From Bradyrhizobium lablabi (GTDB lineage: Bacteria; Pseudomonadota; Alphaproteobacteria; Rhizobiales; Xanthobacteraceae): DNA of 64,000 nt. Below are positions 2 to 3,485 of the stretch, piece by piece (the stretch's first letter is position 1; each line of letters starts with the position of its first letter). Where the stretch lies: the NCBI RefSeq assembly GCF_900141755.1, contig NZ_LT670844.1:6482501-6546500 (forward strand), read 5' to 3'. Made by a program: the position numbers and the translations under genes. The notes under the pieces are model-generated. The model made no database searches. It saw nothing but the letters and a program-made list of their open reading frames with translations, and was not told the origin of the DNA.

Positions 2-1306
2 ATTCTGCGACAAACAATTTTTCTGCTCGGCGTTTTTCTAGTCGCCATCGCTTACTGCTGCTTTGGCGGCCAATCGAGAGTGCCATCGCTTGCTGCGAGT
101 GTTGGGGGGATGTGTCTAATCGGGGCTGGTCGGGCACCCATAATCTCAATCCTAATCACCAACCGCGTGGCAACTGCCATCGGCGCAATCTCTTATTCGC
201 TATATCTTTGCCATTGGCCAATCATCGTTTTTGCAAACTATATTTTTGGTGACCTGACGGGAAACGCAACAGCGAACGTTTCGATTGTTGTTGTCACGCT
301 GCTCTGTTCGCTCACGATGTATTTCTGTGTTGAGAAACCATTTCGGCTAGCGCCACGTGCTGCTGACCCGGGTAGGTATTCGCGAACGTTCGCAATCTTC
401 GCTGCGCTCACAATCTTCGTCGGGGGCCTTACTGCGACCGCCTCAGCCCAAGGCGGATGGTTCTGGCGACTGACGGATCGGCAGCAGGAGATAAATCGGG
501 GTGAGAAGTTCGGCATGTTCCCTTGTCATCAATCGCACTTAAACGATTGCGTTTTTGGCAGCATCACCGGGCCTGTTGGTGTGGTGGTGATCGGTGACTC
601 TTATGTTGAGCAATATGTCGCTGGTTTGCACATTGTCGCTCGGGAACTTGGTCTGCGTGGCGCCGCCTTTACTCATGGCGGGTGCCTGGGCTTGCTTGGA
701 GTTCGTCGAATTAACTACGTCGAAGAGAAGGAGTGTCGTGATGGCCGCGATCTATCACTTGCTTTGGCCAAGTCGAGCAACGCTCCCGTCGTGATCGGGC
801 AGGCATGGATGGGATACGCATTGGGATCAATCGGAGACGACGACAGCAAACCGACTGCTTTTCGATCGGAGGAGGAACGACTAGGCATTCTAAGAACGGC
901 TCTTGAAAAGACGATTAGATTTCTCGGCAGCGATCGTCGTGTCCTAATTATTGGCGCTCAGGTTCTCGCACCCTGCGATATCGAGGCTTATCGTTTTGGG
1001 GCCGGTCCGCTCTGGCATCGGCCGGCGCGTGATTGCGCGCCCTTGCCGTTAGTAACCGCTCGCGGCGAGACTGCCGCAGTCAACATGATGTTGCGTAGTT
1101 TGGAGTTGAAGTACCCGTCACAAGTAAGTCTCCTGCTTCCTGAGGACTATCTTTGCGATGCGGTTTGTCGCTTCCAAAGAGATGGTGTTTGGCTTTATCA
1201 AGATCAGGGTCATCTCACGGTTGCCGGCTCCGAATACATAGCCCGTCGAGCGTACGATAAACTCAAAGCGTTCCTTCTTGTGGGACCAAAATCCGACCCC
1301 TCCTAG
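2..1306 (+). CDS. OafA/YrhL-type acyltransferase with C-terminal SGNH domain (5' end outside window)
   Basis: The reading frame is open from the first base of the window, so the start lies upstream; a GTG at 80 is only an internal codon. About 434 residues are visible. The first ~115 are hydrophobic membrane segments of the acyltransferase 3 family, including a YSLYLCHWP stretch and an EKPFR end that are typical of the last helices of that domain. A soluble part follows from ~residue 190 with an SGNH hydrolase block I (VVVIGDSY) and, near the C-terminus, a DQGHLT block holding the presumed catalytic Asp and His. Such proteins transfer acetyl groups from the cytoplasm to envelope polysaccharides. 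Codon use is somewhat AT-richer than in the downstream operon. The family call is firm; the acceptor sugar is unknown. Confidence 0.88.
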   Translation: MLRQTIFLLGVFLVAIAYCCFGGQSRVPSLAASVGGMCLIGAGRAPIISILITNRVATAIGAISYSLYLCHWPIIVFANYIFGDLTGNATANVSIVVVTLLCSLTMYFCVEKPFRLAPRAADPGRYSRTFAIFAALTIFVGGLTATASAQGGWFWRLTDRQQEINRGEKFGMFPCHQSHLNDCVFGSITGPVGVVVIGDSYVEQYVAGLHIVARELGLRGAAFTHGGCLGLLGVRRINYVEEKECRDGRDLSLALAKSSNAPVVIGQAWMGYALGSIGDDDSKPTAFRSEEERLGILRTALEKTIRFLGSDRRVLIIGAQVLAPCDIEAYRFGAGPLWHRPARDCAPLPLVTARGETAAVNMMLRSLELKYPSQVSLLLPEDYLCDAVCRFQRDGVWLYQDQGHLTVAGSEYIARRAYDKLKAFLLVGPKSDPS

Positions 1307-1405
1307 CTGGTTGAGGCGCCATCGGCTCAGTGCAGTAGGCTGGCGAAATATGCGCCAAAGAACGACGCCCAAATTAGTTGCGGCCAAAAACACAATGATA
1401 CCAAA

Positions 1406-1458
1406 CGGATATATCCGTTCACGTCGTGAACATCGCCCTTGACGTTCATGCCATGAAC
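1406..1458. promoter_or_regulatory. Three consecutive perfect palindromes upstream of the regulator gene
   Basis: Read directly: CGGATATATCCG at 1406-1417, GTTCACG-T-CGTGAAC at 1417-1431 and GTTCATG-C-CATGAAC at 1444-1458. The last two share the pattern GTTCAyG-N-CrTGAAC and start 27 bp apart. They lie 38-90 bp before the ATG of the winged-helix regulator, where an autoregulatory operator would be expected. The protein that binds them is not known. Confidence 0.5.
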
Positions 1459-1495
1459 GCGCTAAGACCCCCACCAAGACCTTAGGGGGCGGGGG

Positions 1496-2140
1496 ATGGA
1501 TCGCTTGTTGGACACCGAGCACGAGAATGAGCGGATCGTGCTTGGCCTGTTGAGTTCCGTCGAGAACGACGGCGAACGTTCCCAGCGCCATATCGCCGCC
1601 GAGCTCGGCATCGCGCTCGGTCTGGTCAACGCTTACCTCAAGCGCTGCGTCAAGAAGGGCCTGGTCAAGGTCCGCGACGCCCCGGCGCGCCGCTATGCCT
1701 ACTACCTGACACCGCATGGATTTGCGGAAAAGTCCCGGCTCACAGTCCAGTATCTCTCCGACTCATTTTCGTTCTTTCGCCTCGCCAAGGCCGATTGCGC
1801 ACACGTGCTCGACGCCGCCAAGGCCGCAGGCTTCAGCCGGCTGGTGTTGGCCGGAAAATCGGACCTTGCCGAGATCGCCATTCTTTGCGCGGTGGAGGCC
1901 GCGATCAAGATCGTTGCGGTGGTTGATCCGCGCAGTGACGATGCGCAATTCGTCGGGGTCGACCTCGTCAAATCCTACACTGAGGTAAAAGACAAGTTCG
2001 ATGCGGTTATCGTGACCGACGTCACCCGCGCAAAATTGTCGTTTGACGCAGCCGTCGAAGCCTGCGGGCCCGACCGTGTGCTGGCGCCCGCGCTGCTCGG
2101 CTTGCGGCCGCCGCAGAAGACGACAGGGGGCGAGGCATGA
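1496..2140 (+). CDS. Winged helix-turn-helix regulator of the polysaccharide locus
   Basis: 214 residues. Residues ~10-75 form a winged HTH of the MarR/EPS-associated type: an ERIVLGLL start, an AAELGIALGLVNAYLKRC recognition region and a KGLVKV wing followed by YYLTPHG. Residues ~95-200 look like a small alpha/beta domain that could bind a nucleotide or small molecule (SRLVLAGKSDLAEIAIL, then VVDPRS); I cannot name its ligand. The ATG at 1496 follows a G-rich Shine-Dalgarno stretch and is preceded by three palindromes that could be its operators. The gene overlaps the NusG/RfaH-like gene by ATGA, so both regulators are co-translated at the head of the polysaccharide locus. DNA-binding role is well supported, target genes are inferred. 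Confidence 0.85.
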   Translation: MDRLLDTEHENERIVLGLLSSVENDGERSQRHIAAELGIALGLVNAYLKRCVKKGLVKVRDAPARRYAYYLTPHGFAEKSRLTVQYLSDSFSFFRLAKADCAHVLDAAKAAGFSRLVLAGKSDLAEIAILCAVEAAIKIVAVVDPRSDDAQFVGVDLVKSYTEVKDKFDAVIVTDVTRAKLSFDAAVEACGPDRVLAPALLGLRPPQKTTGGEA

Positions 2141-2652
2141 GCGAGACGATCGGCCCGCGCTGGTATGTTGTGCAGACGCAAGTGAACGGCGAGGCCAAGG
2201 CTGCGCAGAATTTGGCGCGTCAGGGCTACGAGATCTATCTGCCGCGCTATCTGAAGCGCCGCCGTCACGCCCGCAAGGTCGATTTCACGGCGAAGCCGCT
2301 GTTTCCGCGTTACATGTTCGTGGCCATCGACATGGCGACGCAGCGCTGGCGATCTATTCAATCGACCTTTGGCGTGGCGCGTCTCGTCAGCAACGGCGAC
2401 GATCCGGCCAGCGTGCCCGAAGGCGTGGTTCACGCGCTCAGGGCGCGCGAAGACGACAGGGGGTTCGTCAGGCTCGATTGCAAGCCCGTCTTCGCGCCCG
2501 GCGACAAGGTGCGGGTGCTGGCGGGTGCCTTTATGGACAGCGCGGGGTTGTTCAACGGCCTCGCCGACCACGATCGGGTCTCAATTCTGTTGGAGATGCT
2601 CGGCCGCAAGGTCCGCGTGCTGCTCGACGCGGACATGGTCGCCGCCGCCTGA
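2137..2652 (+). CDS. NusG/RfaH-family transcription antitermination factor
   Basis: 171 residues, the usual length for NusG paralogues. The N-terminal NGN domain (residues ~8-110) begins RWYVVQTQ and includes KPLFPRYMFV, the hallmark of this fold, and the C-terminal part (~120-170) is a KOW domain with PGDKVRVLAGAF. Specialised paralogues of this type ride on RNA polymerase over long surface-polysaccharide operons and suppress pausing and termination. The genomic NusG normally sits next to secE and rplK, which are absent here, so this is a locus-specific paralogue. It is translationally coupled to the upstream regulator (ATGA overlap), and an ops-like element lies 92 bp beyond its stop codon. 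Family assignment is strong; that it regulates this particular locus is inference from position. Confidence 0.9.
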   Translation: MSETIGPRWYVVQTQVNGEAKAAQNLARQGYEIYLPRYLKRRRHARKVDFTAKPLFPRYMFVAIDMATQRWRSIQSTFGVARLVSNGDDPASVPEGVVHALRAREDDRGFVRLDCKPVFAPGDKVRVLAGAFMDSAGLFNGLADHDRVSILLEMLGRKVRVLLDADMVAAA

Positions 2653-2667
2653 CAAGGCGGCTTTAGC

Positions 2668-2690
2668 GTGCGCCGCGCGAAGCGGCGCAC
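2668..2690 (+). terminator. GC-rich hairpin after the NusG/RfaH-like gene
   Basis: A perfect 9-bp stem, GTGCGCCGC (2668-2676) and GCGGCGCAC (2682-2690), closes a GCGAA loop 15 bp after the stop codon. There is no long T tract, so it may be a weak or conditional terminator. It sits between the regulators and the biosynthetic operon, where antitermination could act. Confidence 0.5.
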
Positions 2691-2743
2691 TTCGTCTCGG
2701 CTCCGAACAGGAGCAACCCGTGTGACGCCTGAGTCACCCGGAC

Positions 2744-2755
2744 TGCGGTAGCATG
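2744..2755 (+). promoter_or_regulatory. ops-like element in the leader of the polysaccharide operon
   Basis: TGCGGTAGCATG matches 10 of 12 positions of the enterobacterial ops element recognised by RfaH (GGCGGTAGCGTG). It lies in the 170-bp untranslated leader between the RfaH-like gene and the first biosynthetic gene, 68 bp before that start, and is followed by a short T-rich run. Position and orientation are what an ops site needs. Recognition by this alphaproteobacterial paralogue is inferred. Confidence 0.5.
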
Positions 2756-2822
2756 GAAATTTTTGGCACAACCTCGTCTGATCCGAACACTTCCGGGTTG
2801 GCTTGCGCGGTGACGCTATTTG

Positions 2823-3485
2823 ATGACCTATCGAATCTTTATTCAGGCACGCATGAGTTCGGCGCGGTTTCCGGGCAAGATGCTGGCGCCATTTCGCGGT
2901 CGCCCGTTGATCGCGCAGGTGTTGGAGCGCTTTCGTGGGTTCGACTTGCATTCGCGGATCGTCGTGCTCACGAGCGTCGATTCAACCGATGACCCGTTGG
3001 CGGATTTCGTCGCCAACCGGTGCGCCGTGCCTGTCTTTCGCGGTGAGCTCGGCAATGTGGTGGCGCGCTTCCAATCGGCCCTTGCCGAATACCCTTGCGA
3101 ATGGTTCGTGCGTATCTCCGGTGACAGTCCGTTGATCGATGCCTCGCTCGTGCAAGCCATGATCCGGCTGTCAGATCGCGGGCACGATGTGGTGTCCAAT
3201 GTGGTGCGGCGAACCTTCCCGCCGGGGCAGAGCGTCGAATGTGTTCGAAGCGGGGTCTTCCGTGCCCTCAATGCGGGTGACTTGACGCCGGATCAGCGCG
3301 AGCATGTCACCAAAGTGTTTTACGACCGGCCCGATGACTGGCGGCTGCGCAGCGTGATCTGCGAAGAACCGGCATGGGCTGATGTCCGGATGGTGGTCGA
3401 TCACCTCGACGATTTGCGCAAATTGGAGGCCGGCTTGGCGCAACCGGCATCGTTTGGCGATCTGGCAAGGCCGGAGGCAGGGTGA
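2823..3485 (+). CDS. SpsF/NeuA-like cytidylyltransferase
   Basis: 220 residues. It starts with the nucleotidyltransferase signature IQARMSSARFPGKML (residues ~7-21) shared by SpsF, CMP-Kdo and CMP-sialate synthetases, and has an SGDSPLID acidic motif around residue 100 for metal and nucleotide binding. The likely reaction is activation of an acidic sugar as a CMP derivative; together with the NeuB-like synthase downstream this suggests a CMP-nonulosonate. I chose ATG 2823 rather than the adjacent TTG 2820. The 3' end overlaps the next gene as GTGA. The sugar substrate cannot be told from sequence. Confidence 0.85.
   Translation: MTYRIFIQARMSSARFPGKMLAPFRGRPLIAQVLERFRGFDLHSRIVVLTSVDSTDDPLADFVANRCAVPVFRGELGNVVARFQSALAEYPCEWFVRISGDSPLIDASLVQAMIRLSDRGHDVVSNVVRRTFPPGQSVECVRSGVFRALNAGDLTPDQREHVTKVFYDRPDDWRLRSVICEEPAWADVRMVVDHLDDLRKLEAGLAQPASFGDLARPEAG

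Follow-up and report, generated by a model that had tools for sequence, protein, structure and literature searches.

The window analysed here is a stretch of 64,000 nucleotides from Bradyrhizobium lablabi, corresponding to positions 6482501-6546500 of its 7.91-Mb single-contig genome (G000). On its forward strand, which carries all the features of the window described below, a regulatory module precedes a long locus of glycan genes. The module starts with a gene for a MarR-like winged-helix regulator (1496-2140), which matches HTH_24 and MarR_2 and reaches 62.8 bits with TIGR04176 (MarR_EPS), under the cut-off of 88. The second gene (2137-2652) encodes P0001, a protein of 171 amino acids recognized by profile matches and an AlphaFold2 model as an RfaH-like paralogue of NusG. 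Behind it lie a strong G+C hairpin without a U-run (2668-2690), seen in the sequence and its fold, and a composite hairpin-ops element (2708-2760), which our model R1 matches at 51.2 bits, this site being part of the R1 training set. Within the composite element, a covarying hairpin (2718-2741) with the arms CCG-GUGAC and GUCAC-CGG, the loop GCCUGA and one U:C mismatch (-12.4 kcal/mol, z -3.2) is followed by the ops-like 12-mer TGCGGTAGCATG (2744-2755), whose core GCGGTAGC occupies 2745-2752.

The first glycan gene, of the cytidylyltransferase family (2823-3485), starts at an ATG within an open reading frame listed from TTG 2820, and opens a co-directional nonulosonic-acid/polysaccharide locus of about 29 kb (2823-32324), the presumed target of the module. 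Pfam families along this locus comprise cytidylyltransferase, oxidoreductase, DegT aminotransferases, epimerase, acetyltransferase and NeuB, followed by Asn-synthase-type enzymes, methyltransferases, an ABC transporter and glycosyltransferases up to 32324; three of the scanned ORFs have no Pfam family. By eye, a Shine-Dalgarno sequence is not evident for ATG 2823 in 2755-2823, and it is likewise reported missing from E. coli RfaH targets in the accessible part of PMC7819879. A search of positions 1250-2900 found no sigma-70-type promoter-like site. Upstream of the module, a gene for an acyltransferase/SGNH protein on the same strand (2-1306) possibly belongs to the same surface-glycan region.

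The NusG N-terminal (NGN) domain of P0001 is recognized by PF02357 at 80.8 bits (cut-off 22.2). Among the six NCBIfam models listed, the best is that of RfaH (TIGR01955) at 120.3 bits, short of its cut-off of 144.5; UpxY reaches 71.7 bits (cut-off 100) and LoaP 51.0 bits (cut-off 125). The closest solved relative is E. coli RfaH (E 7e-13), and the RfaH-like paralogue proposed in the preliminary description of this locus is thus confirmed. The host genome holds three NusG-domain genes, including that of the window. The third of them (L003, G000:C1:1311879-1312172) is distinct from both nusG and the window gene, and none of GCGGTAGC, CGGTAGC or GCGGTAG was reported in its 3.3-kb locus.

Residues known from E. 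coli RfaH were counted over 81 distinct sequences, some of which are the same gene cut differently. The equivalent of F56 (F61), associated with high RNA polymerase affinity, is kept in 81/81, with leucine at this position in both E. coli NusG and the NusG of the host, and the L142 equivalent is kept in 81/81 as well. Q24 is kept in 81/81 and T72 in 80/81, the host NusG likewise having Q and T at these two positions. Among the residues that contact ops in E. coli, R23 is kept in 72/81, the H20 position is H in 35/81 and N in 43/81, K10 is kept in 0/81 and R73 in at most 4/81. The autoinhibition residue E48 is E in 0/81, and the F130 position is F in 55/81. Of the residues by which NusG contacts Rho (I164/F165/G166), the F165 position is L in 77/81 and M in 4/81, and G166 is kept in 78/81. 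The roles of these RfaH residues in E. coli are taken from the available text of PMC5995543 and PMC7593976, and that of L142 from the available text of PMC13015549. Since K10 is lost, R73 nearly lost and H20 present in only 35/81, the DNA may be read differently than by E. coli RfaH.

An AlphaFold2 model of P0001, built on a 65-row alignment (mean pLDDT 84, pTM 0.63), places beta-strands between residues 124 and 170 in the C-terminal domain, so that the window protein is predicted to carry beta-strands instead of the autoinhibitory alpha-helical C-terminal domain. The best Foldseek matches of the model are NusG and RfaH chains, and its N-terminal part fits RfaH at 1.6-2.4 A over about 95 residues. 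In a 34-row tree, in which only 6 of 31 inner branches are well supported, E. coli RfaH sits on a branch of length 9.5, which leaves its placement poorly supported. Profile scores, predicted fold and residue counts alike set the window protein apart from E. coli RfaH, of which it is no close copy.

The ops-like sequence TGCGGTAGCATG starts 91 nt behind the RfaH-like gene and is identical to the K-12 rfb ops GGCGGTAGCGTG (L236) at 10 of 12 positions, with two differences and an exact 8-base core; the preliminary description had likewise counted 10/12 to the enterobacterial ops. GCGGTAGCNTG occurs 11 times in the 7.91-Mb genome, counting both strands, and by our own arithmetic its chance of falling in a given 100 nt of one strand is about 7e-5. 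By eye, a hairpin stands beside it at one of these 11 places, the window site. At three places in the genome (L034, L035 and L043, at 35874, 186410 and 7007938) there are copies of a repeat, GAGTCGAGGATGGGCGCGGTAGCTTGGGGCC, which carries the ops-like core without the hairpin block of the composite.

The site is conserved in orthologous leaders, as the test set beforehand for the preliminary description asked. The family set comprises 89 loci with a tblastn match (L101 had none and was dropped); a core GCGG[T/A]AGC lies at most 300 nt behind the gene in 56 of them, that is, in 51/60 at 50% protein identity or more and 5/29 below 50%. Conserved adjacency thus stands for the closer relatives, but an adjacent core is rare among the more distant ones. 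For comparison, the background of the 8-mer GCGGTAGC over the same family loci, true sites included, is about 0.023 per 300 nt. Another set, the best 80 of 426 loci, covers Bradyrhizobium, Afipia, Nitrobacter, Methylocystis, Pseudolabrys, Rhodospirillales and others; with L227 dropped for want of downstream sequence, 68 of 79 loci have a core GCGG[T/C]AGC no more than 300 nt behind the gene. The gene-to-core distance in these 68 has a median of 69 nt and is 47-104 nt in 67 loci and 272 nt in one. As some contigs are common to both, the two sets are not independent. In the same best 80 of 426, a MarR-like gene is found by tblastn at most 300 nt upstream of rfaH in 72 loci. GCGGTAGC makes up 7 of the 9 invariant columns of alignment A1, with its T nearly invariant, in part because the loci were chosen by the core. 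Within GCGGTAGC fall G5/T6 and the G2:C9 and C3:G8 pairs of the E. coli ops hairpin, as these are described in the accessible sections of PMC5995543 and PMC11001881.

The alignment also has a second conserved block, upstream of the ops core. The preliminary description had taken the 12-mer by itself as the ops-like site; its core is indeed conserved, but the element is a composite of hairpin and ops. In the 56 loci selected by the core, the 30 bases before it have a mean z of -3.04, and in 47 of them the last paired base comes 0-3 nt ahead of the core. Across 29 class-level loci, the hairpin window has a mean z of -3.11, with 28 of 29 below -2, compared with -1.33, -0.43 and -0.03 for three neighbouring windows; these loci lean towards a hairpin because the stem is part of the model that retrieved them, a bias from which the 56 core-selected loci are free. 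Standard pairs fill 81.9%, 89.0% and 88.8% of cells in alignments A1, A4 and A6, the latter two fitted to a covariance model, versus 27-53% when the arms are slid. The covariation score was reached by none of 500 shuffles, which ignore relatedness, in each of the three alignments. For the number of pairs changed on both sides, 57, 12 and 35 of 500 shuffles (A1, A4 and A6) reached the observed count, and some slid versions equal or exceed the real arms in double changes. When 3' halves were exchanged between elements, the native combination folded better than the average exchange in 77 of 85 elements. The arms differ in sequence among relatives, with TCACC in the 3' arm as a stretch of conserved sequence.

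RNAalifold on the MAFFT alignment A1 did not recover the upstream hairpin and returned only two pairs inside the ops core; the hairpin was therefore named by hand from single-sequence folds, and then assessed by the pair counts and the half-swap test. A longer stretch of the window RNA prefers another fold. In the window, the hairpin base lies 13 nt before U2754, the pause 3' end predicted by analogy to U11 of E. coli ops, and by our own count the spacing is 10-13 nt in most loci. The hairpin at 2668-2690 has no U-run and is not called terminator-like. It was rejected as the working structure because it would hardly fit in those relatives among the best 80 of 426 loci whose core follows the gene at only 47-60 nt. 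By eye, inverted repeats resembling 2668-2690 are found in the close relatives L005-L007.

The covariance model R1 was trained on 62 family elements, of which 56 were picked by their core behind the gene and 6 elsewhere in the loci with core and hairpin in view; its E-values are rough. In the window's own genome, the window site scores 51.2 bits (E 4.7e-11), and the next best 17.4 bits (E 0.35). Among the best 80 of 426 loci, the model has a match in 70. Across 296 family genomes, at E<=1e-4, the element is found in 68, all of which have the gene (gene criterion E<=1e-10); the gene occurs without the element in 18 genomes, and the element in 0/210 genomes without the gene. The match side (68/68) is partly circular, and the 0/210 is not. 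At looser thresholds R1 matches appear in gene-less family genomes (4 at E<=1e-3 and 16 at E<=0.01), indicating that weak matches are unreliable. One family match (G289), whose element overlaps an ORF for a PLP enzyme, was taken as false, and another, L254 (G498), whose element overlaps the start of its ORF as called, was kept.

The association extends beyond the training family. A class scan covered 385 genomes, with only G000 and G024 coming from the training family among those listed. Specialists were defined as matches to profile A3 at E 1.2e-29 or better, a cut-off placed after the results were seen in the gap to the next match at 1.1e-22, which is excluded. At E<=1e-3 the element is present in 54/385 genomes, and an RfaH-type specialist in 50 of these 54 versus 39 of 331 others (Fisher 2e-33); 39 genomes have the gene only, 4 the element only and 292 neither. 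Leaving out G000, a specialist is found in 49 of 53 element genomes (Fisher 9e-33). The four genomes with an element and no detected specialist are G329 (99% completeness), G422 (74%), G521 (70%) and G522 (10% contamination).

In a draw from the phylum, 13 of 299 genomes match at E<=1e-3: 4 from the same genus, 2 from the same order and 7 from the same phylum. Four of these 7, all of family f184, which is labelled as another class of the phylum, have both element and specialist, adjacent in two. The other three, in genomes without an RfaH specialist, were judged false: G756 has an altered core and a weak hairpin, G856 a weak hairpin beside an exact core, and G904 lacks the core.

Counted from match end to match end, 27 of the 58 class elements, among them that of the window, follow the gene at 23-152 nt on its own strand; the remainder lie farther off, on the opposite strand or on other contigs. 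The self-contained arrangement of the preliminary description is therefore seen in the window, where gene and element are adjacent, but not in all relatives, where the element may be kilobases away or on another contig, mostly before glycan-type genes. From 19 of 20 loci with non-adjacent elements we took 20 first or early proteins, not always from the first ORF (L240 was left out and L257 contributed twice). These are 13 glycan-type proteins, 2 ABC transporters, 3 methyltransferases, 1 protein without a family and 1 Cys/Met PLP enzyme, that of G289. The glycan-type proteins, among which we chose to count Asn synthase by interpretation, comprise Asn synthase (3), DegT (2), NeuB (2), glycosyltransferase (2), GDP-mannose dehydratase/epimerase (2), polysaccharide epimerase (1) and hexapeptide transferase (1). 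Since elements head unlinked loci in relatives, action of the factor in trans is also probable there. In L120, L128 and L133, all of one family (G354, G476 and G649), rfaH and the element stand 850-880 nt apart on opposite strands, so that the gene reads away from its presumed target. Two Bradyrhizobium loci have two hairpin-ops elements each (L164, at 4098 and 10549; L170, at 4289 and 4528), possibly a duplicated control.

We propose, with a probability of roughly 80%, that an RfaH-type factor encoded at the locus keeps transcription of the ~29-kb glycan genes processive after being recruited at a hairpin-ops pause of its own. The parts, their order and conservation, the covariation of the hairpin and the co-occurrence of gene and element are firm observations, from which we infer pausing, binding or recruitment, and antitermination; the preliminary description as a whole is supported on the same terms. 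RNA polymerase entering the leader would pause at ops, where the non-template GCGGTAGC would fold like E. coli ops and the nascent hairpin, whose base trails the RNA 3' end by about 10-13 nt, would be placed to lengthen the pause. Hairpin and ops would jointly keep the polymerase waiting for the local factor, which would bind the paused complex, displace NusG and travel along, suppressing polarity over the following ~29 kb. In the hairpin-stabilised pause of his the corresponding spacing is about 11 nt, and the 10-13 nt found here are near that of such pauses. The E. coli ops pause, at U11 and with a non-template G2-C9 hairpin, is described in the accessible part of PMC11001881 as biochemically distinct from RNA-hairpin pauses such as his.

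A reading of the element chiefly at the RNA level, in which the transcript hairpin is bound by the factor or by another protein and the ops-like core serves as a pause only, seems to us doubtful. In its favour, the hairpin is conserved and covaries, TCACC of its 3' arm is conserved in sequence, and the K10 of E. coli RfaH and almost every R73 are missing. LoaP has been proposed to bind a hairpin in its leader RNA. Against a mainly RNA-based role, the arms differ in sequence between relatives, whereas GCGGTAGC supplies 7 of the 9 invariant A1 columns (partly through the core-based selection) and keeps G5/T6 and the G2:C9 and C3:G8 pairs of E. coli ops. The hairpins between the gene and the glycan locus could also belong to an intrinsic attenuator or another cis-acting RNA, independent of the RfaH-like protein; this is improbable, given that no terminator-like site was called, that Rfam yielded no match and that the element was found in none of the 210 family genomes without the gene at E<=1e-4.

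Linkage of a MarR-like gene in 72 of the best 80 of 426 loci and an inverted repeat, a usual form of an operator, would fit an operator of that regulator whose nearness to rfaH is incidental. We regard this as quite improbable, because the inverted repeat changes with compensation while the ops core is the most constant part, and because it is the RfaH-type gene that co-occurs with the element genome-wide, MarR linkage having been counted at loci only. A functionless chance match of the 12-mer, for which one may point to the 11 genomic occurrences of GCGGTAGCNTG, is negligibly probable and was rejected, the core being kept at a narrow distance in 68 of 79 loci (best 80 of 426). Recruitment of the local factor at a hairpin-ops pause thus remains our preferred interpretation.

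The module is akin to the E. coli RfaH-ops system in its NusG-family paralogue, in the core GCGGTAGC, which keeps G5/T6 and can form the G2:C9, C3:G8 stem, and in the placement of this core on the sense strand in the leader of a long surface-glycan operon. It differs in that the window gene stands directly before its site, whereas E. coli rfaH is unlinked; in the covarying hairpin that adjoins ops; and in the protein, as K10, nearly all R73 and E48 are lost over the 81 sequences and that of the window is predicted to have beta-strands in the C-terminal domain. A stem-loop with ops in polysaccharide gene leaders also recalls the JUMPstart RNA (Rfam RF01707), as described in the available portion of PMC2864571. 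RF01707 matches both E. coli leaders (60.0 and 52.5 bits), in each of which the ops core is present, and R1 scores them at only 12.7 and 16.0 bits. In window positions 1300-3000 RF01707 and the rest of Rfam 15 gave no match at E<=10, nor did Rfam 15 give a match in the window at gathering scores or in ten related loci at E<=1. Membership in JUMPstart was consequently rejected for want of a covariance-model match at the window or the ten related loci.

The beta-fold predicted for the C-terminal domain and a gene beside its presumed target operon liken P0001, by these features only, to predicted monomorphic beta-RfaH homologues. Such homologues stand beside long operons; according to the accessible part of PMC13015549, those tested showed reporter activity irrespective of ops context and were proposed to be recruited in cis, whereas an ops element is conserved here. 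As a presumed specialist NusG of a long operon, P0001 also resembles the operon-encoded paralogues UpxY, LoaP and TaA, which serve glycan or other long operons, although it scores under the cut-offs of both the UpxY and LoaP models and lower than the 120.3 bits with RfaH. The available text of PMC7593976 assigns 18% of rfaH genes to Alphaproteobacteria, links the rfaH cluster CL4 to an HTH regulator, and states in 2020 that the recruitment of operon-encoded NusG specialists was unknown, E. coli RfaH being the sole representative with a known mode. CL4 is perhaps the module type found here. LoaP has reportedly been studied since 2020 (PMC12691694).

The preliminary description knew of no ops-dependent control described in an alphaproteobacterium. 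Among the literature matches listed, which cover papers under some licences and without supplements, no report of an ops element in this class was found, but RfaH-type genes there are already published (PMC7593976, in its accessible part). What is new here is the proposed hairpin-ops variant of RfaH-ops control; alphaproteobacterial RfaH-type genes were known. The variant defines a conserved candidate recruitment site for a whole clade, with a hairpin that is testable by point changes, and a marker for finding glycan loci under such control in uncharacterised genomes. Ops is conserved in the absence of K10, of E48, of nearly all R73 and, as predicted, of an alpha-helical C-terminal domain, which bears on the proposed order of RfaH evolution. 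We tentatively suggest, well aware that it may prove wrong, that a distinct hairpin-ops is the dedicated landing site of operon-encoded, non-autoinhibited RfaH-type factors in Alphaproteobacteria and family f184, that ops either predates the K10/R73 contacts and the fold switch or is read independently of them, and that RNA-hairpin and non-template-hairpin pauses are joined at one site. If true, this would speak against the model in which sequence-specific recruitment arose together with autoinhibition.
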